NCBI RefSeq assembly: GCF_910592395.1
Contig: NC_088326.1
Location: 13,335,001-13,399,000 of the forward strand
Direction of reading: 5' to 3'
From: Lineus longissimus
Lineage: Eukaryota > Nemertea > Pilidiophora > Heteronemertea > Lineidae
Length of the DNA stretch: 64,000 nt
Shown here: piece after piece, positions 35,601 to 58,202 of the stretch
Position numbering within the stretch: position 1 is the first letter of the stretch
Layout of the letters: every line of letters starts with the position of its first letter
Notes under the pieces: model-generated
Seen by the model: only the letters and a program-made list of their open reading frames with translations
The model's database searches: none
What the model was told of the DNA's origin: nothing
Made by a program: the position numbers and the translations under genes

Positions 35601-38600
35601 TTATCAATTTAAATTTTACTATTAGAAGATAAAATCATTGTATTTCGGTTGTATCAACATTATTATTACAAGGTGATAGCATTCCAATCTTACTACTGTA
35701 GTGTATCAGTAGATAGGTTTTGTTAATATCTAGGTGTACTCTACTTTCAACGGCAAAGGAATGTGACGTGGACCCTGTCGCCGTAAGGCTTGTCTCGTGT
35801 TATATTTTACATTGATAGCCGTTCATGGCAATTTGTGATGGATTATAAACAAATCAGCTTCTCTGCGCTGTTAATCCGGCTGCAGCTTCTGTGCTGTTGC
35901 TTTCCGCTTTCGATTTGTTTCGCTTTGGCAGTGAATGAGCAGAAAGTTCCCTCTGCTAAATTTTGGCGCCAACCAGACGTAATATCGTTCTCTTACATAC
36001 TGATAAAGCATGAAAACAGTAAAACAGCAAAACGTGAAAACAAAGGAATGCTGACAGTGTGTGATAGATAGTTCGTCTTGATTTTCGTCTCAACAATGAA
36101 GAAAAATAACGTGCATCGCCCGGGAATCGAACCCGGGTCGCAAGAATGGGAATCTTGCATGATACCACTACACCAGCGGTGCTTCTATGCGAGCACTGTT
36201 CACCATTCAAGCGTTTGTGCTGGTTGTTGTCAACACTGTAGCGCTCAGAGCGCCTGTCAACGAAAGGGATGAGCATTGTGGAAGCTTTCATGCTATCACG
36301 ATGTCGTTAGGCTGCATGACAAAGGCAAAACATTTTTTGTACGAACGTAATTTCATAACGTTCAAAATCACTAAGTTGTCCCAAAAAATTAACATGTGGC
36401 AGTTTTTGCTTCGGCAGACGTGATTGTCTGCCATGTGCAGACTCAAGCATTAGCGCCACCCGTGGTGCCCAACGGGACTAGGCTACAAACGTCGCTCTGT
36501 ACATTTTCCTTTCCCATGACCGGAACTCGAATTCTATCCGACGTCGTTCCATCCCTGCTTGTAACTGCGCACTGTACAGTAACTTTCCAACATGGAGGCA
36601 AATACTGGCAGAGAGAATATGCTTGAATATTATATCTGCTTTGGAGAATGCGCTCAAAGCAGCCCATTGTGCCTAATAGCGCGGTTCGAACTTTATGCGG
36701 CAATCTGGCACGACTCGGTATCTCTCAATGACATCGGTATCTCGCCAATTTATCAGTTACTGCGTTAGGTACAGATTTAGTCACTTAACTTCTCATCGGA
36801 GAGATTGGCTATAGAACAGCAAGAGCAGCACTACTTCACTTTGGTTTCTGGTGGTCTCTTGGGCTGTGTGTCCATATGCTGTTCCCCTCTGGAGTCGTGG
36901 ACTTCTGGCGTTGTTTTCATTGTCACCAAAGCATGTTCCCTGATACAACCGATGGGAACGTCCAAAAAGGCAAGCAAAGATTTATTTCGTGTGTAACGCG
37001 TCACACACGGGAAAAAGCACCACAGGCAAATAGCCTATAGATACACCGCCGCCAAGAGAACGGTTGGGAAATGAAGAACCATCGCCTTTTCATTTGTTTG
37101 TTGTATTGGATCTCCTGCGATATGGTACATTTGCTAAACTTCTGGGAGACGCCCGGTAAATATAGTTTATTCGGGTGGCTGAACAGCATATTTAAACGGT
37201 TAATTCACGTTTGTTGGTAAATTTATTTTGTTCTTATATTTTCAATGGCAGCAATGATAATGCGATTAAAGATGTCACTCACTCGGAAGATAACACGAGT
37301 TGTCAATTCATGAAACTGACGCGCCAACCCCGTGACTTGAGTGAATTTCACCAGGAACATTCCATACTAACTTTACTAGAACATCAGCACATTCTGTATG
37401 GAGTAAGCGCAGTCTATCAATTCTAACCGACGTGATGAACTCTACTTTGTTTGCGTTTAACGTTGAAAGTGTACACACGAAAAGTCAACTGTCGGTCAAC
37501 CGTCGGTCAACCGGTTACGATCCAATTAAACCTTGTTTGTAATCTACTATTAAATTAATGGCGCTTTGATGAAACTGCAAACAGAGTTGTAAGTTTGCTA
37601 CTTGCTATTTCACTTTGGCTTAAGGTCTCAACAAGAGAAACCCAAAGACGTGCAAGTAACGTAAGCAAACACGACAGAGAGTTTCAAAATGGCCGATTTG
37701 ATAAGGCCATATTGTCAGTCGGAAGTGACGTAAGCTGAATCTGGTTAGTCGCCGTAGACGTTCGCGGGAGGGCGGAGCAAAACAGAAGGCTAATAAATGT
37801 TGGGTCTCCGAATAAGGAGTGTTGTGATAACCAAGACAAACTGAACAGACATTTAATTTAGGTTGTCACCGGTGGCCTCTGCCTCAAAGACGAGGCTTAA
37901 TAATTCATACAACAAGATCAATTGGCGGCACCAACCAAGAATCACAGACAGACACCCTTCCAAACTACCATCCACCTTCAGTCTTGATTTATATTCAAAA
38001 ATCAGTTTAGGAGCAAATAATTTAAGAGTACTTCGAGTTCAGTATCAAGTGCATTAGCTGATAAGGGCGGGGTCAGTAGTGGCAAAAGAACTACTTGAAG
38101 TAACCAGGACAAGATAGTGATATATTGCTGGCGGGTTTTCAAGTGTGTATCAACATTTTATGCAGTTTGATCAAAACGTTAACAAAAATACAAACATTGC
38201 ATATGAAAGAGTGTCCTACCTGGGAATTCGACCAGTTATTCGCTGTCTTCAGCTATCGCCTTGGTTCCTTTTGACATCAAACAATTCGTATCAACAAATA
38301 CACAAGCGGGAGAAACCAGCCGTTTTCCAGCAGAGATGTTCATGTCCAAGGATGACGGACAATTTCACAAAGATTTTTAAAAAATACGAGACCGTGACAT
38401 GTCCAATAACAGAGAAGAGCCGATATGGGCGTAGGCTAGCATATGCACTTCCTAGTGTGACCCAGACCGGCTCATTTCCATGGACGAGTGATATTGACAA
38501 AGCCTGCATTGAAAAAAAGATGGCCAATAGACTCTTCTTTATTACTTCGTGTTACAGAACAAGTGTCCCAACTATTGGTCACAGTGAATTATGTCATCTC

Positions 38601-48400: not shown

Positions 48401-49134
48401 TTGACAGCAAAGCAGTATATGGTTACTCGGCCTTAGGGAATAGTGCTGAGCATACGCAATTATAAATTAATCAATATGTATAAACAAATAATGAGCCAGG
48501 TCAAATATAGCATGAAATATGACAAGCTCCAAGGAGGAAAATGGAAGATGAACCCCGCAGTAACACACTCCCACATTCCTCCTAGCTCGTCATGGACGAA
48601 ACAACAAACTAAGTAGACAACACGTGACAACTAGCAAAACACACGACAACTAGCAAAACATGTGACAGCTAGCAAAACATGTGACAGCTAGCAAATCGTT
48701 TTTCACTCCAAGAATTTCTGCAAATGGCCCAGTAAGTTAAGGAATGAATTCAGTGTCATAGCAACCTCTGAGGGTTTGTAAGGATAGCAGACGGACATCT
48801 TGGGTAATGACGTTTCTGTATCTTCATAGGGTCGTAACCATGGTAATGTGTATGTTGCATAGATGGTCATTTATTTTCTGAAAATGGAATATTCAATAAA
48901 TATATCATCTTTCTATAACATAAATAACGTCATTGTTTAAGTTTCTTTGTTCAGACAAGTACTTAGATCTCGTGTTTATGAGGCTTGTCATCTCAGAATC
49001 TGGATCAAACTCATGATTGTCACGGATCCCTCAATACCAGGCCTGGGCCTGCTCGTCCAAAACTGATCTGGAGTGAACAAAGCCACCCAGGAAACAGGAG
49101 GATTGCCCTACTCATCGTCAATGACAACATCTAC
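45487..49134. other. 3' untranslated regions of the second GATA gene (+) and RPN2 (-), convergent
   Basis: The two genes converge here. A plus-strand AATAAA is at about 46223, with others near 47294. Minus-strand signals (TTTATT on the plus strand) occur at several places. A 13-base poly-G run lies at about 46519. No coding exon or structural RNA is recognised. Confidence 0.45.
48620..48695. repeat. 19-bp tandem repeat, four units
   Basis: Four units of the form ACATGTGACAGCTAGCAAA lie head to tail, probably within the RPN2 3' untranslated region. The first two copies are slightly diverged. Confidence 0.8.
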
Positions 49135-52100
49135 TCACTGTGACTTCCGAGCTGATGCAATGTTATGCAGGAGGCGGTTCCCAAAGATGAACGTTGGAAT
49201 TCCGATGATGCCCAAGTAGCGGAGCGTTGTAAACATGTCAAGACATGTCCAGTAGCCATAATACAGGGTGAAGATACCTGCAAAAGGAAAACAGGTTAAA
49301 ATGATACAGACTTCAATCACCCAGAAAGTGAGAGGTTCCCTTCACCAAAAGTCCATGTATGCTTGGTTCCAGTACGATTTTAGGTAAATAAGAAAATGAA
49401 GAAAACATTAATGTTGATTCCTGTCAGGAACAAACCTACCCTGAATCTCACAGTGAAAGAAAGGGCTCAAATTGGCCTAGTTTGTATAGCAAACGTTCTA
49501 GGAAAACTGATACAAGGAATTGTAACAGATTGCTGGTAGCTTGCAAAATACATCTAAAACAGACAAGGAAACATCTACATGTGTCAGGAACAAACCTACC
49601 CTGAATCTCACAGTGAAAGAAAGGGCTCAAATTGGCCTAGTTTGTGTAGCAAACGTTCTAGGAAAACTGATACAAGGAATTGTAACAGATTGCTGGTAGC
49701 TTGCAAAATGGTTGCCATCTAATGGTCAACTCAGAAAATGTTTTTAAGCATATTGAAATCATAAAATTGGTCGACATGAAATCTGTGTGGTGGGACCTAA
49801 ACCAAGATGCCTAATAGAGAGGACCACTTGGCTCAAACTGTGACCAGGTTTATCTAGCAAGCAGTCTAGGAAAACTAGTACAGAGAGTTGTAAAAGTTTG
49901 CTGGTTAGCTTGCAAAGTATTTCAAGATCATCATATTGTTTACATGATGTGATGTCTGGTGCGACCTAAACCAAGATGCCTAATAGAGAGGACCACTTGG
50001 CTCAAACTGTGACCAGGTTTATCTAGCAAGCAGTCTAGGAAAACTAGTACAGAGAGTTGTAAAAGTTTGCTGGTTAGCTTGCAAAGTATTTCAAGATCAT
50101 CATATTGTTTACATGATGTGATGTCTGGTGCGACCTAAACCAAGATGCCTAATAGAGAGGACCACTTGGCTCAAACTGTGACCAGGTTTATCTAGCAAGC
50201 AGTCTAGGAAAACTAGTACAGAGAGTTGTAAGAGTTTGCTGGTTAGCTTGCAACGTGACAATCAACAGCACCAAGGTGGGGATACAAGACTTGGAATGTT
50301 TTGTTGACTGATCTCCTGGGCTGTGTAGCACCAGCAGGGTGTGCAGGCATGTCCACTGTGTCAAACAAGAGATATTATGAATGCTGGGTAGAACTCTTAC
50401 CTCCAAGACACACATGGAATCCAACAGCACTGACTGAGAGGGGGAAGTTGGAGATGTTCACGCCGATCTTCATCCACTGAAAAGAAGAAGAAAGGTGAGT
50501 ACTCATTACCCATAGAGTTATTGAGGATTCACGGAGTCACTTGTCACAAGTGAACTGACTCAGGCTTGAAAACACAAAGTGAGGGCGAACAGTGACATTA
50601 TGAAGACTCGTTCGATCTTCATGTCACCCATGAAGAGTGAAAACATGACCTCGATGTAATCACCGCTGAACGCACAACCTGGCAAACAAATAGAATGAGT
50701 GTACGGTGATTCTAACCAAAGAGTCAACTGACGACAAGCCGGCTCAAACACACCGTGTTTCTCTAGCAAGCAGTCTAGGAAAACTTAGACAAAAGTGTAA
50801 AAGTTTGCTGGTTAGCTTGCAATATTGTCACAACCAAAAGGGTAAAGTAAAACCAACACCGTCCATACGTGGCACTGACTGTCGCAAGGTTTGTATTGGT
50901 GCGATGTGGAGATGTGACATCAACTTTGTCAGAGGTCTGATGTCAATTTGACACATACTGAATACCCTCATGACATGACCATTCATTCAACAGCATCCAA
51001 CAAGCCCTTTCTGATGGTATCAGTTGTATCGAGATTGATCATACTTCCTACCCCCGCCCCCCTCCCCCTAGCTTTTTTTATTACTCACCAAGAATAAGAG
51101 AATAAGGATTGGCAAGAGTACAAGGACTGTGAAAGCGTTGGAGACGACCGTGGGAGGAGTCTTCTCAGGTGGACGGAACATATGCTGAAAGTATACGGAG
51201 GATTGAGATAATCTGTATGGCAGAACATCTCCAGTATCTTACTGTAGAGAAGCAACTTGAATCAACAGTCATCGCAGCAAGATATCATCTCTGATGTCAA
51301 ACATAACACACTCAGTTGGTGACGTCAGCAGGGTCAAGCTCATGGACTGATGTCTAAAATGGCCGTCTTAATGTACAACACTCGGCATGATAGAATTCTG
51401 CCACGTGCCTGGACACGAAGTCCTTCACTGATATATCCTGGTGGAAAATCTCTTACCTCAATCTCAGGTCTCATTGCGTACATCTTGTCATTTGGTTTGA
51501 CTGGTGCTGCCCCCTCTGGGAATGTCAGGGAAATATCAGCCACGTGCCACGAGAATGGGTTTTCAATGACTGCATCGCCTACTATCAACTCCACGGTGTA
51601 TCGACCAGACAACCACCCAAACGTGTTACCACTCGCCCCGATGTCCTGAAACAAACGTTGAAATCCAGTCAGATGGGAATCACCTCTTGCTTACAACCTA
51701 GGATGAATAGACAAGACTTTATGATCTCTCGACAACACTGAGCAAACTTGGGGAAGCCAGCTTTGAATGGAATACCTCCGAGGACAAGACCTCTTGACCG
51801 AGGCAGTGTATTCCAATCCTTTAGGCTACCAGGACAAAACATTGTCCGTTTTAATCTCACTTCCATGTCACCACTTGAGATCAGTGGCATAGTGGTTGAA
51901 CATGGGCTCATAATCAGGAGGTCGTGGGACAGCCACTCAAAGGGATCACCACAGTGTCATCCTTAAGCAAGGCACTTGCCTACATGCTTCTCTCCACCCA
52001 GGAGTGAATGATACCCAACTGGCAGAGATGGCCTAGTGCTTGTGAGTCGAATCAGATGTGAACACATCATCCTGGACAGAGAGATTCCACGGTGTTTGTT

Positions 52101-55100
52101 TGTAACTTCCTGTCATCACAAACTGGTGTAGACAGCTGAAGGCCGGAAAGATCACTTTAAATGCAACCAAGCAAGCATAGCCCTTCATCGAGTGTGTAAC
52201 AGTCAAAACATCGTAGATCTCGTGATCTACTCTATCACCAGGTTTTAATCATCAGGGCTACAGACCTTATAAATGCAAAAGCAGAGTACCTTATGAATCA
52301 GTTTGTCTGAGTTCACCTCTTGTCAGAACAGCACCTCTGTGGAGGGAACCAACAGGCCGAGTTATGGGGCCAGACTGATGTTTGACATCAGTGCCATGAG
52401 GTGTCCTCGTAATCAACAGAGGCAGACCACATGCCAGCCGTTGATATCATGACAGAAGCTGACCCCATAACATGGCTGAGTTCAGTTACCCACCACTAGA
52501 GGTGCTCATCTGGAAAGTGGGGGAATCCAGAACAGAGACTCACTCCGCAGAATATAACCTCACCAAGTTAAACTTGTAGTTCTTGACCGAGTCCGCCGAC
52601 GCCGTGAAGATGACTTCTTGCTTTGTCTTCTGATTGGTCAGGCGGACGAATGTCTGGTGAGCCGTCATGAGGGCGCCACTGGTTTTATCCTTCAGCTGGA
52701 ACTTGGCGATGACCTTCTGATGGTGGTCAGCCTCCAGGATGTTTGCTGCCTTGTTTGGGTGCTGCAGTCTGGAAGGAGGTAACTTGGTAACAACAGTTGT
52801 TCAGGAGTGCTCACTTGCCTGGCTGTTATGACCAGCAAAGAGGCTCCTGAGACCAGGTTATTCTCGCCAGCACTCGCGGAGAACTAATACAAGGAGATGT
52901 GATAGTTTAGGGGTGGCTTACCAGCACATTTTGTAGTCTCTGGTGAAATCAACAAGCAGGGATGTCTGATGATTCTAACTGATCGGCTCACAACGAACTA
53001 ACCAGCTCAAACACATCATGTTCATCTAGCAAGCAGTCTAGGAAAACTGATACAGAGAGTTGTAAGAGTTTGCTGGTTAGCTTGCAATTCTACCAGAACA
53101 AGATGGAGACCATATTCAGGCTCAATCAACCCAAGAGAACGAAAGTGCCACACATTTCTGCAAATCAACTGCACCGTGGCGTATCAGTTTCAGGTAAGTT
53201 CACCTTCGAGAACGGCCCTCAATGGACAAACTTGACCAAGACAAACCAGGGCCCAAACAAAACAAATGCACACACTCAGAACACGACAGCAGGCCTAGCC
53301 AACTTTGGACAATGCCATGAACCACTGTGACTGTTTGTTCGAGGTGAAACACATGACTGGTCAGCACCCAAACATCTCCTTTGGAGAATAACTTACTTGG
53401 TTGTCTTTGCAGCAGAGCTCTGATCCTTGTCGGCCACGCCAATCTCGACATTCTCGATCATCACCTGGGTGGTTACCTTCACGAGCACCTCCGCGCCTGC
53501 TGTGCCAATCAGTCGACTGTCCGCCTTGGCCGGTGTCGCACTGATGGTCATCTTGTAGAAGCCTCTACTCGCCTTAGTGTCCATGAAGTTCAACTCATAC
53601 AGGGTGCTGCAAAGAAAGCCGATGTTCATTCATGTGATGTCGATTGCAAGTTGAAGTGATCACCACAACTTCTTATCAGCACTCCAGCATCACCAATGCA
53701 GAGGATGCTCACATAGTAAGGCCCCTCATAGCGAAATTGACTCAGCAAATTATACCTCAGGGTCTGCTCTATCTTTTGAATCATCAGGGCCAAACATCAT
53801 TCCGTCTAGATTTCTAAAAATCAGACAGACTGTTGAAGTACCAACACAAAACCAAGTGCCTGACTTACTTATCTGAGGACGAAGCTGTGAACTGCTTCTT
53901 GTTGAGGACAACAGCATCAGTGCCACTGTGGCGGGCTGAATCAGCCGTCACCGTCAACTTGCCAAGGCTACTACCGAGGAGATTGGTCACTCGCACCTGA
54001 AGAGAAACCAAGTCAGAATCTTGATGAAGCAGGACAGTGGAAATAACAAAGGTCACGTACTGACCTTCCAGTTCAAACCTGGAACATCAACTTGTACATT
54101 TCTTTGTTTTGAAACCTGAAAGCCCCTCATAGCGAAATTGATTCATCACTGAAAGACGTAGTGTCTTCAGGGTCTGCTCTATCTTTTAAATCATAGGGGC
54201 TTGACCGCAAGCTTAGCACCATCACACACCAAGGAGTCACAGGGTTTTAGCAGAGAAGGTCTCTGATACATCGTCACATGGCATGGCTGTTGAGCTTGCA
54301 ATTATGTTCAGCGTTCATAACTATTGACATCAATGGCAATGTTACGCTACTTAGAATAATAACGTTTCTGAACCAAGCGATATTCTAGCAAGCTTTTTAA
54401 CATACCTGAACTTTGGGGGCCTTGGTTGAGATGGACACTTGGCTGGCCAGGGTCACTGCTACTGGAATGTGGAACTGAAAGAGATCGATCAGGAAATAAT
54501 AAATATTGGAATGATGACAAGACTTTGGGTGCTAACTTTCAGCTATGCTCATCACCTGCCAATAATTTGACTCTTGCACCTGAATAAGATGGTAGTAGCC
54601 CGTTTTCTGGCTAGCCCTTCATAGTGTGTAACAGATAAATCTTCACAGATCTTAAGATCTGCTCAATACTTAAGATTTTTAATCATTAGGGCTGAACAAT
54701 AGGGACGTTTACTCTGTCTAGCGATGATAACCAAGTGGCCAGATCCGACCAGGATCAGAACATCGCTGTCCAAGTCGCTCCGAGGACGGGAGCCTCGGTG
54801 TTGTACAAGCCAACTTGGGTTTAGTCCATAGAGGTGCAGTTCACCTCGACACACAATCTTGAACACAAAGGTGTAATATGGCAGCAGAGTGTATAATCTC
54901 ATTATTTATTCTCAGGTGTCAGTCGTGGTGAGCGGTGTTTGCTTACCTTGTTGTCCGAGAGTGTCTTGGTAACAGCTAACAGGTTGGAGGCAGCACGCAA
55001 CTGATGAACATGTTTCCGACTCAAGAAATAGTTGGTGAACTTGATCACTTTATCCTGAAAGTGAAAAGTGCAAATAATTTAGCGATTAGGAATGAGAAAG

Positions 55101-57135
55101 TAGACAATACAAGGTCATCATCATCAGCAGTATAACATTTTCGGTTTCGCGTCGAGACCTGGTTAGCCTGTCGAAACCTTTCTGCCCTGAAGACCAAACA
55201 AGAAGCTCCTTCCACTACCTAGAGGAAACTGTGCCCTTCATCGTGTGTAACAGATGAATCATCACCAGTCCAAAGATCAGCTCAATCATAAGATTATTAA
55301 ATCATCAGGGCTCCCTCCCCCCCCACACCATCATAACACCTAACATGAACTCACCGCTGCTATAACAGGAGCCTTTTTAGATTTTTCTGCCAGTTTGTAA
55401 GCACCATTTACTGTGACCGACGTTGTGAACAGGCCTCCTTCAAACTGTAAAAACTTCTCGTCTACTTCGTCCGATTGGGCGACTATATCCTCAATGGCGT
55501 CAAAATATTTCTTTGTGTCGACACCTGATAACTCCGATGCTATGTGGAATGCATAACCATAACTGAAATAGAGACGTAGCGATGACATCATTTCACAAAT
55601 CAGACTCGGAGCTTGTCAAACAAGTCAGAGCAAGTTGACTTGGCCTCGTTCCAATTCAGACCTGATAGACACCTCCACAATTACAGACATGTTATGTTGT
55701 CACCAAGACTAGGTTTTTGACAGAATTAGCCCTTCATAGCGAAATTGACTCATCAGAGATAAATCTCAGGGTCTGCTCTATCATTTTGAATCATCAGGGC
55801 TCCGATGGTGTGAAGTTCCTGCATGCTGTACTCTGTTCCAACTACTCCTTACCTAAGTGGCCCATCGTCTTTCTTCAACGCCCCCTGTAGGGCTTTGTGG
55901 ACAGCCTGCGAATCGGCAGCAAGACCAAGATTTTTCAGGGCAAAAAAGGCAAAGTAAATAGTGACAACAGCTGCATCTTCTTTGATGGCGTCCGTCAACA
56001 TCTGCTTGGCTCCGTCACCAGCTATCTACAATAGACAAGATGACAATTAGTCTGGAAAAAGTATTTTAAAAAGACAGCCACATCATACAATGTTACAGAG
56101 TTCAGTTTGGACGGGATTAGTTTTCTTGTTAATGAAATCGCAGAGACAGATATTTTAAGCCCTTCATAGTGTGTAACAAATGAATCATCACAGATCCAAA
56201 GATTCAGATTTTAAATCATCAGGGCTAATTCGACTGTGATTCAGTATCAAATCCCATCTTTCTGATCCTACATGTATTTTTCTAGCTCAAAGACATTGTG
56301 GTAAGATGCACCCTACTCACATCATTGTATTATACTGGATACATACCTTGCAGTTAGGCAGCATTTTGCTTGCAGATGATGCATGGAACATCATCTCCAC
56401 ACTCTTGGTGTCCATCTTGGACTTAATGAAGGAACAGGCATCCTGAAAAACAATCAACATCATTTCAAAATGTCCAATGCAAACAACACAATAAGACATC
56501 CTTGGAGAAACTCAAACTATTGCCAGACTGTCTGTCTCACATGCGTTGAGTCAACCCAAGGTTTACTTTTATGTTCAAACTTTGAATTTTGTTCGACTCG
56601 TTAGAGGCCATTAAGGACTTCATATATTCTCACCTCTGGTTTTGGAATGGGACTTCCTAACAACGTCAGCCCAAGAATGGAATAATGCGCACTAGCTAGT
56701 TCTGTGTACGGCTGCGCTGCTTCAAAGATCGATCGCAGTCTCTTCTGGTCAACAGTCGTAAAGTAGGATGATGGTGTCAGTGCCTGACCAACAACGGTCA
56801 ATGCAAAGAATACGAGGATTGATACACCTAGGATGATGAAGAAAACATTTTTATAAAGAGGATACAAGTTTGGTACTAAAGCTTGTACAAAATACTGAAA
56901 AGGGTGACAAAACTCCCAGTGTGAACAAGAGGTTTTCACAGTCAAAGACAAGACAAATGCTCGAGTAGCATGACTGAGCATGGCCAGGCTTCATTCATGC
57001 GAATGACTTCATCTCGCCTACTAGTAAAAGTACAAAAATCCTCGACATTTCTTCTGCATTTTCCACGAGATTCTATGTTGTGGCCTGCAAGCCTAATAAC
57101 TTAAGACACAATCACTTTACACCCAAAACCACCAT
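49135..57135 (-). CDS. RPN2: RPN2 (ribophorin II), subunit of the oligosaccharyltransferase complex
   Basis: Endoplasmic-reticulum membrane subunit of the complex that N-glycosylates nascent proteins. Minus-strand exons in order: 57123-57135, 56634-56827, 56347-56442, 55853-56025, 55355-55562, 54947-55054, 54406-54474, 53869-53996, 53397-53606, 52564-52768, 51457-51645, 51089-51184, 50401-50476, 49135-49277. All phases agree and total 635 codons, against 631 in human from memory. A signal peptide (about residues 1-20, ending GQA) precedes 'LTPSSYF', matching the human mature start 'LTPTHY'. Family landmarks include 'DKDQSSAAKTTK', 'AHQTFVRLTNQKT' and 'FRPPEKTPPTVVSN'. Three membrane segments lie near residues 547-563, 573-596 and 604-624. 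The 13-nt first coding exon has a weak donor (GTGTAA) and is the least certain part. Its introns carry two families of snoRNA-like elements. Confidence 0.92.
49419..49547 (-). ncRNA. H/ACA snoRNA-like element, RPN2 intron 13, copy 1
   Basis: On the RPN2 sense strand it begins TTGCAAGCTACCAGCAA, forms a first hairpin closed near GCAAGC/GTTTGC, then has ATACAA as a possible ANANNA hinge. A second arm ends CCTGACAGGA, with ACA three bases from the end. It is a near-identical duplicate of the next copy. The second hairpin pairs less well than in the intron 9 and 12 copies. Confidence 0.5.
49579..49707 (-). ncRNA. H/ACA snoRNA-like element, RPN2 intron 13, copy 2
   Basis: Nearly identical to copy 1 over about 125 bases, with a T to G change next to the hinge region, and followed by ACA in GACACATG context. 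The two copies are separated by only about 30 bases, so this is a recent local duplication. Confidence 0.5.
49781..49916 (-). ncRNA. H/ACA snoRNA-like element, RPN2 intron 13, copy 3
   Basis: The sense strand has first-hairpin ends GCAAGC and GCTTGC, hinge AGATAA (fits ANANNA), a second arm opening CCTGGT, and ACCAC-ACA-GAT at the end. One closing pair is mismatched. It is the first of three units in a 169-bp tandem repeat. Confidence 0.6.
49950..50085 (-). ncRNA. H/ACA snoRNA-like element, RPN2 intron 13, copy 4
   Basis: Second unit of the 169-bp tandem repeat. Hinge AGATAA is followed by a second arm closed by CTGGT with ACCAG, then ACA and three bases (TCA). This is the canonical end of an H/ACA RNA. 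Confidence 0.65.
50119..50254 (-). ncRNA. H/ACA snoRNA-like element, RPN2 intron 13, copy 5
   Basis: Third unit of the tandem repeat, almost identical to copy 4 and with the same hinge and ACA end. It lies nearest the 5' end of intron 13 on the sense strand. Confidence 0.65.
50697..50823 (-). ncRNA. H/ACA snoRNA-like element, RPN2 intron 12
   Basis: The clearest copy, about 127 nt. The first hairpin is closed by GCAAGC/GCTTGC and the hinge is AGAGAA. The second hairpin is closed by a perfect six-pair stem, ACGGTG with CACCGT, directly followed by ACA and three bases (CTC). Only the first hairpin and the TTTGAGCC segment are conserved with the intron 13 copies. The stem differs in sequence but keeps pairing, as expected for a selected RNA. 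Confidence 0.75.
51882..52045 (+). repeat. tRNA-derived SINE fragment in RPN2 intron 10
   Basis: A tRNA-like head contains TGGCATAGTGGTTGAA (A box) and GGTCGTGGGACAG (decayed B box). It is followed by AAGCAAGGCACTTGCC and TCTCCACCCAGGAGTG, a segment I recall from SINE bodies of many marine invertebrates. It lies antisense to RPN2 and near the box C/D element at 52179. The family name is not assigned. Confidence 0.55.
52179..52259 (-). ncRNA. box C/D snoRNA-like element, RPN2 intron 10
   Basis: Sense strand: AGCCC, C box TGATGA, and a final ATGA (D-like) before AGGGCT. Upstream of that box is TGTTACACACTC, complementary over 12 bases to GAGTGTGTAACA of 28S rRNA as I recall it. The box is displaced by one base relative to copies in introns 3 and 6, so the predicted target nucleotide shifts. 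D' and C' are poorly conserved, and it lies 533 bases from the next exon, farther than the others. Confidence 0.55.
52862..52926 (-). ncRNA. decayed H/ACA-like relic, RPN2 intron 9 (tentative)
   Basis: GAACTAATACAAGGAG and neighbouring bases align loosely with the conserved first-hairpin core of the intron 9, 12 and 13 elements, with a possible hinge AGAATA on the sense strand. The closing stems are not preserved. It is probably a dead copy. Confidence 0.3.
52960..53087 (-). ncRNA. H/ACA snoRNA-like element, RPN2 intron 9
   Basis: Sense strand: first hairpin GCAAGC/GCTTGC, hinge AGATGA, then a second hairpin closed by TGATG with CATCA, one base, ACA and TCC. Length is about 128 nt. Its first half is nearly identical to the intron 13 copies while the second half is diverged. 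Confidence 0.7.
53721..53790 (-). ncRNA. box C/D snoRNA-like element, RPN2 intron 8
   Basis: Sense strand: GCCC, C box TGATGA, D' CTGA after GATAGAGCAGACC, degenerate C' (TGCTGAG), and D-like ATGA after GTCAATTTCGCT. The terminal stem reads GCCCT/GGGGC with one wobble. It shares both guide segments with the intron 4 and 7 copies. I do not recognise their target. Confidence 0.65.
54121..54201 (-). ncRNA. box C/D snoRNA-like element, RPN2 intron 7
   Basis: Sense strand: terminal stem AGCCCC/GGGGCT, a two-sided change from AGCCCT/AGGGCT elsewhere that keeps the pair. The C box is degraded to TATGAT, D' is CTGA, C' is TGATGA and D-like ATGA. The guides match the intron 4 and 8 copies. The extra loop between D' and C' contains a self-complementary GACACTACGTCTTTC stretch. 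Confidence 0.65.
54613..54693 (-). ncRNA. box C/D snoRNA-like element, RPN2 intron 6
   Basis: Sense strand: terminal stem AGCCCT/AGGGCT, C box weakened to TAATGA, D' TTGA, C' TGAAGA and D-like ATGA. The segment before the last box is TGTTACACACT, an 11-base antisense match to remembered 28S rRNA. The weakened boxes suggest that this copy may be decaying. Confidence 0.6.
55233..55312 (-). ncRNA. box C/D snoRNA-like element, RPN2 intron 5
   Basis: Sense strand: GCCC, C box TGATGA, D' CTGA, C' TGATGA, guide TGTTACACAC, one base, D-like ATGA, then AGGGC. All internal boxes are intact. Ten bases match the 28S segment GTGTGTAACA. Confidence 0.75.
55728..55801 (-). ncRNA. box C/D snoRNA-like element, RPN2 intron 4
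   Basis: Sense strand: stem AGCCCT/AGGGCT, C TGATGA, D' CTGA after AGAGCAGACC, C' TGATGA, and D-like ATGA after GTCAATTTCGCT. It has the best boxes of the subgroup shared by introns 4, 7 and 8. The rRNA or snRNA target is unknown to me. Confidence 0.75.
56158..56226 (-). ncRNA. box C/D snoRNA-like element, RPN2 intron 3
   Basis: The cleanest copy, 69 nt. Plus-strand positions of the boxes: C 56216-56221, D' 56204-56207, C' 56185-56190, D-like 56164-56167. The terminal stem is AGCCCT/AGGGCT. The guide, complement of 56168-56178, is an 11-base antisense match to AGTGTGTAACA in 28S rRNA as remembered. The fifth base upstream of the D-like box would place 2'-O-methylation on the second U of AGUGU. 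The D box reads AUGA instead of CUGA in every copy. Confidence 0.78.
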
Positions 57136-58202
57136 GCCACATATTCAACCAATCAGATTGCAGCATTGTGGCTTCCATGTACACTGTACAATACACGTGG
57201 CAAAATGGCCGCCAACTCAGAAATAACCGGCAAACTTCAGCAAAGGTTTTGGAAAAATCTAGACGGTACGCAATCACTAAATTAACGCAGGATACTCTTA
57301 GGAATGTCTAGAATAGGCAGAAGCATTTTTATTTCAATCTAAAGTCAATGTGATAGAGTTATTTATTGCCGAAGTGAACAATAGTTGTACCGTGCGCCAT
57401 GTCGACACCGCCGCTCTCGAGAGGTCAACATCCGGGCATTAGATTACGATTGTTTCGCTCCCTGACCTTTTCGCCCCAGTCGCTTCGCTCCAAATCGAAG
57501 TCGTTTCGCTCATTGTCTCAGAAAGGATTGATCAAACTTTCCAAAGTTGTCGGCTATCTAATGGCCAGAGCCACTTTAGCCCAGAGCATAGCGCGTCGGA
57601 CTGAAAGACAGCATCGCAAACTAGGGTTTACCCTATCCGCAGGGCCCGAGAAGCGAACATGAACCCCTGATTTCCTCAGGATGCCCTTTTGGGGACGAAA
57701 TATTGGTCGAACGCATTCAGTGAACTTTAGTTCAGTTGGCTTCGTGCAGATGGCAGCATCGTACTTGGGGTACTTCCGTATTTAGAGTTTATGAAATATG
57801 AAGAAAACATTTTCACAGTTTTCAACCCATTTATTGCCATTTTTGGCATCAAATAAAATGATTACCTTACCCAAAGTGTAATCAAAGGTAAGCTACTTTT
57901 CAAAATCCAAAACTTTCTAGGCCTACATGTGGTGAAATAAATCGTTCCTTCATTTTTTGCTTACTTAGGTAGTTAGGTTAGGATTTTGTAAGCACTTTTT
58001 TTGACATTTTCTTCACACTCACTCATATCTCATCACATGATGCACTCACTCACTCAGAGTCTGTGTCAATGATTAGTGATTGAATTGATCGACTTTCGTG
58101 TCTATACCAGGGCCAGATCCCACATCTGCACAGAGGTGGGCAGTGGCAAGGGTACCACAGTCCCCAGAATGTAAATAAGAATTTCATTGGAATTTTTCAG
58201 GG
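57136..58202. promoter_or_regulatory. shared upstream region of RPN2 (-) and the MTERF gene (+)
   Basis: About 1 kb separates the two start codons, which face away from each other. A YY1-like AAAATGGCCGCC lies at 57203. Three spaced copies of a TTTCGCTC-type motif occur between about 57450 and 57512. A splice acceptor (AATTTTTCAG) at 58200 shows that the MTERF transcript has a non-coding 5' exon somewhere in this region. I infer a bidirectional promoter near 57.2-57.5 kb. Confidence 0.45.

Follow-up and report, generated by a model that had tools for sequence, protein, structure and literature searches.

The window analysed here is a 64-kb stretch of the genome of the worm Lineus longissimus (C20:13335001-13399000), and its main occupant for our purposes is RPN2, a gene whose introns carry an array of elements resembling small nucleolar RNAs (snoRNAs). 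Spliced together, exons 2-14 encode 630 residues, and the full-length protein shows 100% identity to the L. longissimus protein P0001, which is annotated as subunit 2 of oligosaccharyltransferase, contains four ribophorin II domains (Pfam) and has as its best solved structure 6s7o_F, a subunit 2 chain (E 1.9e-140). Because P0001 is longer by four residues at its N-terminal start and by one at its end, two short exons of RPN2, the first and the last, are unplaced. The last one seems to fall within 48870-49140 of the window (minus strand), and a GTGAGT donor-like word stands at the end of exon 14. Both ends could be placed for 12 introns (introns 2-13), all of which are GT-AG. Seven of these (introns 3-8 and 10) contain one box C/D snoRNA-like element each, and three others contain copies resembling the H/ACA snoRNA SNORA9 (introns 9 and 12 have a single copy each, and intron 13 has five), so that at least one snoRNA-like unit is present in 10 of the 12 placed introns, always on the sense strand of the host. 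Introns 2 and 11 contained no snoRNA-like unit in a kink-turn scan and an Rfam scan that both covered them. Among the papers listed in literature searches, none treats RPN2 or ribophorin II as a snoRNA host, judging by titles and the starts of abstracts.

Table 1. RPN2 and the snoRNA-like copies in its introns (positions in the window)
Feature	Position	Strand	Remark
RPN2 host gene, exons 2-14 as spliced	49135..56827	minus	first and last short exons unplaced
C/D snoRNA-like copy, intron 3, subfamily I	56158..56226	minus	12-nt guide to 28S, flush with box D
C/D snoRNA-like copy, intron 4, subfamily II	55728..55801	minus	orphan guides
C/D snoRNA-like copy, intron 5, subfamily I	55232..55312	minus	10-nt guide; mismatch at nucleotide adjoining box D
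C/D snoRNA-like copy, intron 6, subfamily I	54613..54693	minus	11-nt guide; best Rfam snoR11 match
C/D snoRNA-like copy, intron 7, subfamily II	54121..54201	minus	compensatory inner stem pair, AGCCCC/GGGGCT
C/D snoRNA-like copy, intron 8, subfamily II	53720..53791	minus	compensatory outer stem pair, GGCCCT/GGGGCC
C/D snoRNA-like copy, intron 10, subfamily I	52179..52259	minus	2-nt insertion between guide core and box D
SNORA9-like H/ACA copy, intron 9	52960..53087	minus	49.9 bits, E 3.6e-8; gathering score 85
SNORA9-like H/ACA copy, intron 12	50697..50822	minus	47.1 bits, E 1.9e-7
SNORA9-like H/ACA copy, intron 13	50119..50253	minus	42.4 bits
SNORA9-like H/ACA copy, intron 13	49950..50084	minus	44.3 bits
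SNORA9-like H/ACA copy, intron 13	49781..49915	minus	43.5 bits
SNORA9-like H/ACA copy, intron 13	49579..49706	minus	32.9 bits, E 1.6e-4
SNORA9-like H/ACA copy, intron 13	49419..49546	minus	32.1 bits, E 2.5e-4

An earlier note on this DNA had described the C/D-like elements as seven units of 69-81 nucleotides (nt), one per intron in the sense orientation of RPN2, six of them lying close upstream of the next exon. All seven were found on the minus strand as described, and the distance to the next exon measures 112-177 nt for six copies and 533 nt for the intron 10 copy. When a covariance model made from the seven was run on the whole 64 kb with filters off and E values allowed up to 10, it returned 19 rows, in which the seven score 70.4-88.1 bits, high by construction, and the other 12 at most 10.5 bits; it is this gap to everything else that is informative. 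Mean identity is 0.68 inside the elements compared with 0.39 and 0.40 in the 60-nt flanks on their two sides, and shuffling one pair of flanks 200 times gave a mean identity of 0.415. Since identity falls to the level of shuffled sequence in the flanks, the terminal stem is the edge of the element; the 3′ flanks of the copies in introns 4, 7 and 8 are, at 0.46, slightly higher, compared with a shuffle maximum of 0.58. A scan of the window for kink-turns, with a grammar drawn up after the elements had been seen, gave eight matches on the minus strand, seven of which are these elements, and two on the plus strand; in introns 2 and 11 and at 56828-57250 it detected nothing else of C/D type. We set aside as chance a weak Rfam match of the intron 8 copy to SNORD52 (17.5 bits, E 6.5, gathering score 45).

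If stem I is the 6-bp terminal stem and the loop is formed by the three bases that follow it, a box C AUGAUU and a box D AUGA stand near the two ends of all seven copies, in register with the stem, and the GA of box C faces the GA of box D, followed by U.U and then by U-A. The tandem G.A pairs expected of a kink-turn are thus in register in every copy, although the letters depart from the consensus RUGAUGA and CUGA in that all seven have AUGA as box D and a U at the sixth position of box C. Read from the letters in this way, the kink-turn would be a compensated variant, in which U-A replaces the usual G-C. The outer box C proposed in the earlier note, UGAUGA, is present in only five copies, being broken in introns 6 (TAATGA) and 7 (TATGAT), and we abandoned it for AUGAUU, which is intact in all seven. 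Internal boxes, judged by eye, are visible as a D′ box CTGA in five copies (introns 3, 4, 5, 7 and 8) and as a C′ box TGATGA in four (introns 3, 4, 5 and 7), and are degenerate elsewhere. The AUGAUU/AUGA pair has a published precedent in the snoRNAs of the G. theta nucleomorph, where it is termed compensatory and mutational work on the archaeal protein is cited (PMC6461891); AUGA also serves as box D in a small fraction of Dictyostelium snoRNAs (PMC8817022).

The terminal stem is short, with 6 bp in six copies (one of them including a U-G pair) and 5 bp in intron 5. Five copies have A-U as the outer pair; intron 8 has G-C there, and in intron 5 the two bases do not pair. At the inner pair, five copies have U-A, intron 7 has C-G and intron 8 has U-G. 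The compensatory change noticed earlier in intron 7 is real (inner U-A to C-G), and intron 8 adds a second (outer A-U to G-C). Sliding the partner strand of the stem lowers pairing from 98% to 20-64%. By covariation alone the stem is supported, but not strongly.

The seven copies fall into two subfamilies. In subfamily I (introns 3, 5, 6 and 10) the core of the guide next to box D, TGTTACACAC, is identical in all four copies. In subfamily II (introns 4, 7 and 8) both GATAGAGCAGACC-CTGA and TCAATTTCGCT-ATGA are letter-identical in all three, and the stretch between these guides varies in sequence and in length (16, 24 and 15 nt, respectively). Guides that are kept while loops drift are what would be expected under purifying selection on the guides. 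The middle word of subfamily II recurs in altered form in intron 10 and more altered in introns 5 and 6, and is unrecognisable in intron 3; because this word is partly common to both, the two subfamilies appear to be homologous, with the D guide as their main difference.

The subfamily I guides beside box D match a highly conserved part of large-subunit (LSU) ribosomal RNA (rRNA) with 10-12 Watson-Crick pairs, in runs that end at box D or one base away from it. For introns 3, 6 and 10 the runs are 12, 11 and 12 pairs long, compared with best decoy matches of 9, 9 and 10 in 96 kb. By the fifth-nucleotide rule, the predicted target of the copies in introns 3, 5 and 6 is the uridine of GGAGUGU*GUAACAAC, the counterpart of Arabidopsis 25S Um1278 in the GTPase-associated centre, and the insertion in the intron 10 copy shifts its predicted target to a uridine two nucleotides upstream. 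The match holds for eukaryotic LSU rRNA generally, and conservation of the site elsewhere makes it likely that the target is the same in this worm.

The H/ACA-like copies in the same gene had been overlooked in the earlier note. All seven match the full length of the Rfam model RF00411 SNORA9, with E values from 3.6e-8 to 2.5e-4 and scores of 32.1-49.9 bits, which lie below the gathering score of 85. Their first hairpin and pocket are nearly invariant, and the second hairpin of the consensus fold varies, with four pairs changed on both sides and broken pairs in several copies. By eye, every copy has a hinge that fits ANANNA and an ACA three bases before the end of the Rfam match. The five copies in intron 13 (49419-50253) are close to one another, three being nearly identical among themselves and likewise the other two. 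By this evidence the seven are homologues of SNORA9, formally not members of the family, from which they differ in scoring below its gathering score and in that five are crowded into one intron. The host of human SNORA9 is SNHG15. Elsewhere in the window, ARAGORN reported a single transfer RNA gene, tRNA-Gly (CCC), at 36111-36182 on the minus strand.

Taken together, the boxes, the stem, the one-per-intron layout on the sense strand and the subfamily I guides bear out the reading of the seven elements as box C/D snoRNAs, a class assignment that is well supported at the level of sequence. By analogy with the maturation of animal intronic snoRNAs, splicing of the RPN2 pre-mRNA would release the elements, and exonucleases would trim them back to the terminal stem protected by the kink-turn. 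Judged from the pairing and the fifth-nucleotide rule, the copies in introns 3, 5 and 6 would then guide methylation of 28S rRNA at the uridine of the GTPase centre named above, and the intron 10 copy would guide methylation two nucleotides upstream. Subfamily II would be a branch related by descent whose D guide is another one and whose target is therefore another RNA. RPN2 would in this worm be a host of multiple snoRNAs, with a C/D set and the seven SNORA9-like H/ACA copies. We consider this reading as a whole, that is, intronic C/D guides of 2′-O-methylation, with subfamily I acting at the GTPase centre and RPN2 as multi-snoRNA host, to be very probably correct. How the array arose we can propose only tentatively, with slightly less than even confidence. 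A single ancestral C/D RNA, with the U-A-swapped kink-turn, may have spread across the introns of RPN2, mostly retaining its middle guide while its D guide diverged three ways: toward a GTPase-centre uridine methylated in plants and unlisted for human and yeast, toward a site two nucleotides off in a re-aimed copy, and toward another RNA through a fully conserved new guide. An H/ACA family would have multiplied in parallel in the same gene.

Several observations weigh against the reading just given. All Rfam matches at the seven elements fall short of their gathering scores. The covariation of the stem is modest, in that 22 of 500 shuffles reach its score and 122 reach its count of further pair types, and the U-A pair of the boxes provides no test of covariation by itself, since it never varies among the seven copies. 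The 10-pair run of the intron 5 copy is equalled by its best decoy run, also 10, in the same 96 kb. Searched against LSU pieces, subfamily II gave a longest run of 4, equalled by 4856 of 5000 shuffles, and thus no convincing target. Finally, the exact 22-nt word of the 28S target has no match in the 391-Mb Lineus assembly; the ribosomal DNA may lie outside the assembly, the search may skip so common a word, or the worm's own sequence may deviate at this site. Other rRNA words yielded nothing in public contigs. As a separate observation, a fragment of eukaryotic LSU rRNA sits at one end of each of two contigs from a viral collection (L001, 4115-4503, and L002, 2847-2968, both on the minus strand), which are perhaps chimeric assemblies.

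A search for a target of subfamily II covered 5053 letters of sequence, comprising yeast 18S, the 3′ part of yeast 25S, part of human 28S, 5.8S, and human U1, U2, U4, U5 and U6. The best run of the D guide in this set lies in yeast 25S and has 15 pairs, four of them G-U, beginning two bases away from box D; five further D-guide rows listed have 7-9 pairs, and the best D′ run has 8. We set the 15-pair run aside for the two unpaired bases beside box D, for its reliance on G-U pairs and for its position in a variable stretch of 25S. A pairing of the D guide together with box D to the 28S word UUCAUAGCGA was dropped because it would use up box D.

The alternative that survives best accepts the elements as C/D snoRNAs and takes the subfamily I match to be a relic, or to serve as a chaperone of rRNA folding, with no methylation of the GTPase centre in this worm. 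Speaking for it are the columns for human, yeast and algae, which are empty at this site in the table of a plant review (PMC11542601), and the failure of the exact search to recover the worm's own 28S. We nevertheless think it unlikely, as the pairs run up to box D or to within one base of it, the core TGTTACACAC is unchanged in all four copies, and plant snoR11 uses the same register.

Seven similar units with inverted-repeat ends would also suit a short mobile element, such as a miniature inverted-repeat transposable element (MITE) or a snoRNA-derived retroposon, that was inserted repeatedly into RPN2 and is now inert. In addition, an 8-nt repeat, TTGCATTT, flanks the intron 10 copy 11-12 nt off its ends, a finding equalled in 3 of 200 shuffles, this being one of seven such tests. 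In the flanks of the other six copies, however, no duplication stands out (30-199 of 200 shuffles did as well), the elements all share one orientation, lie one per intron and occur nowhere else in the 64 kb, and their guides are conserved while their loops are not. A genome-wide search, allowing up to three mismatches, with a 20-nt word that spans the guide, box D and the stem and comes from subfamily I only, matched 27 places, of which those with fewer than three mismatches are RPN2 introns 3, 5 and 6; the remaining 24 compare with 15 for a reversed control pattern, and the word missed the intron 10 copy owing to its insertion. A gapped pattern spanning the entire element, searched without mismatches, matched introns 3 and 4 only. 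Orientation, copy number (with mismatches, genome-wide for the subfamily I word) and edges speak against a MITE, and we regard a mobile origin of this kind as very improbable. The TTGCATTT repeat around 52179-52259 (minus strand) may be an insertion scar or chance. One further genome match, on contig 2 (L010; 15.3 bits), has the guide and ATGA but lacks a matching stem and was not retained.

That the elements are other intronic kink-turn structures merely resembling snoRNAs, such as hairpins like the selenocysteine insertion sequence (SECIS) or protein-binding splicing regulators, is scarcely credible, for although the kink-turn core is common to other kink-turn RNAs, a SECIS has a long helix after its AUGA, whereas the consensus fold here consists of a terminal stem and short internal hairpins without such a helix, on which ground we rejected a SECIS-like element, and the guide spacing is of C/D type in elements that are intronic rather than in a 3′ untranslated region.

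If the reading favoured here is right, an animal marks a GTPase-centre uridine that plants mark and for which the plant review tabulates no such mark in human or yeast, and one can test within a single gene whether an rRNA mark was lost, retained or re-invented. The array would show the turnover of guides in one frame, with seven guides that are homologous and lie in introns near one another, among them a switch of target and a shift of register. It would also add an animal to the organisms with the compensated AUGAUU/AUGA kink-turn, and such RNAs could escape searches that look for RUGAUGA and CUGA.

Among known systems, the closest to subfamily I is plant snoR11 of Rfam, whose guide UUUGUUACACAC stands in the same register before box D and is predicted to reach the same LSU uridine. 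Three of the seven copies match its model, with 31.0, 24.6 and 24.3 bits (E 0.02, 0.8 and 0.98; gathering score 50), the best being that of intron 6. The worm copies differ in having AUGA where snoR11 has CUGA as box D, share little else with it and stay below its gathering score. They would thus work like snoR11 without being filed as snoR11, either by shared descent or by convergence on one target. Arabidopsis SnoR22 guides modification of 25S A1263 and U1278, the second of which is the same GTPase-centre uridine (PMC8053127). SnoR22 uses both of its guides on two nearby sites, whereas we saw, by eye only, no guide for A1263 in the worm copies. GtNM-R12-14 of the G. theta nucleomorph share the compensated AUGAUU/AUGA pair and have other listed targets in an algal nucleomorph, whereas the worm has an intron array in an animal gene (PMC6461891). 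The RPN2 array is no new kind of system; what sets it apart is its host, the array itself, the compensated kink-turn in an animal and the predicted target in the GTPase centre.
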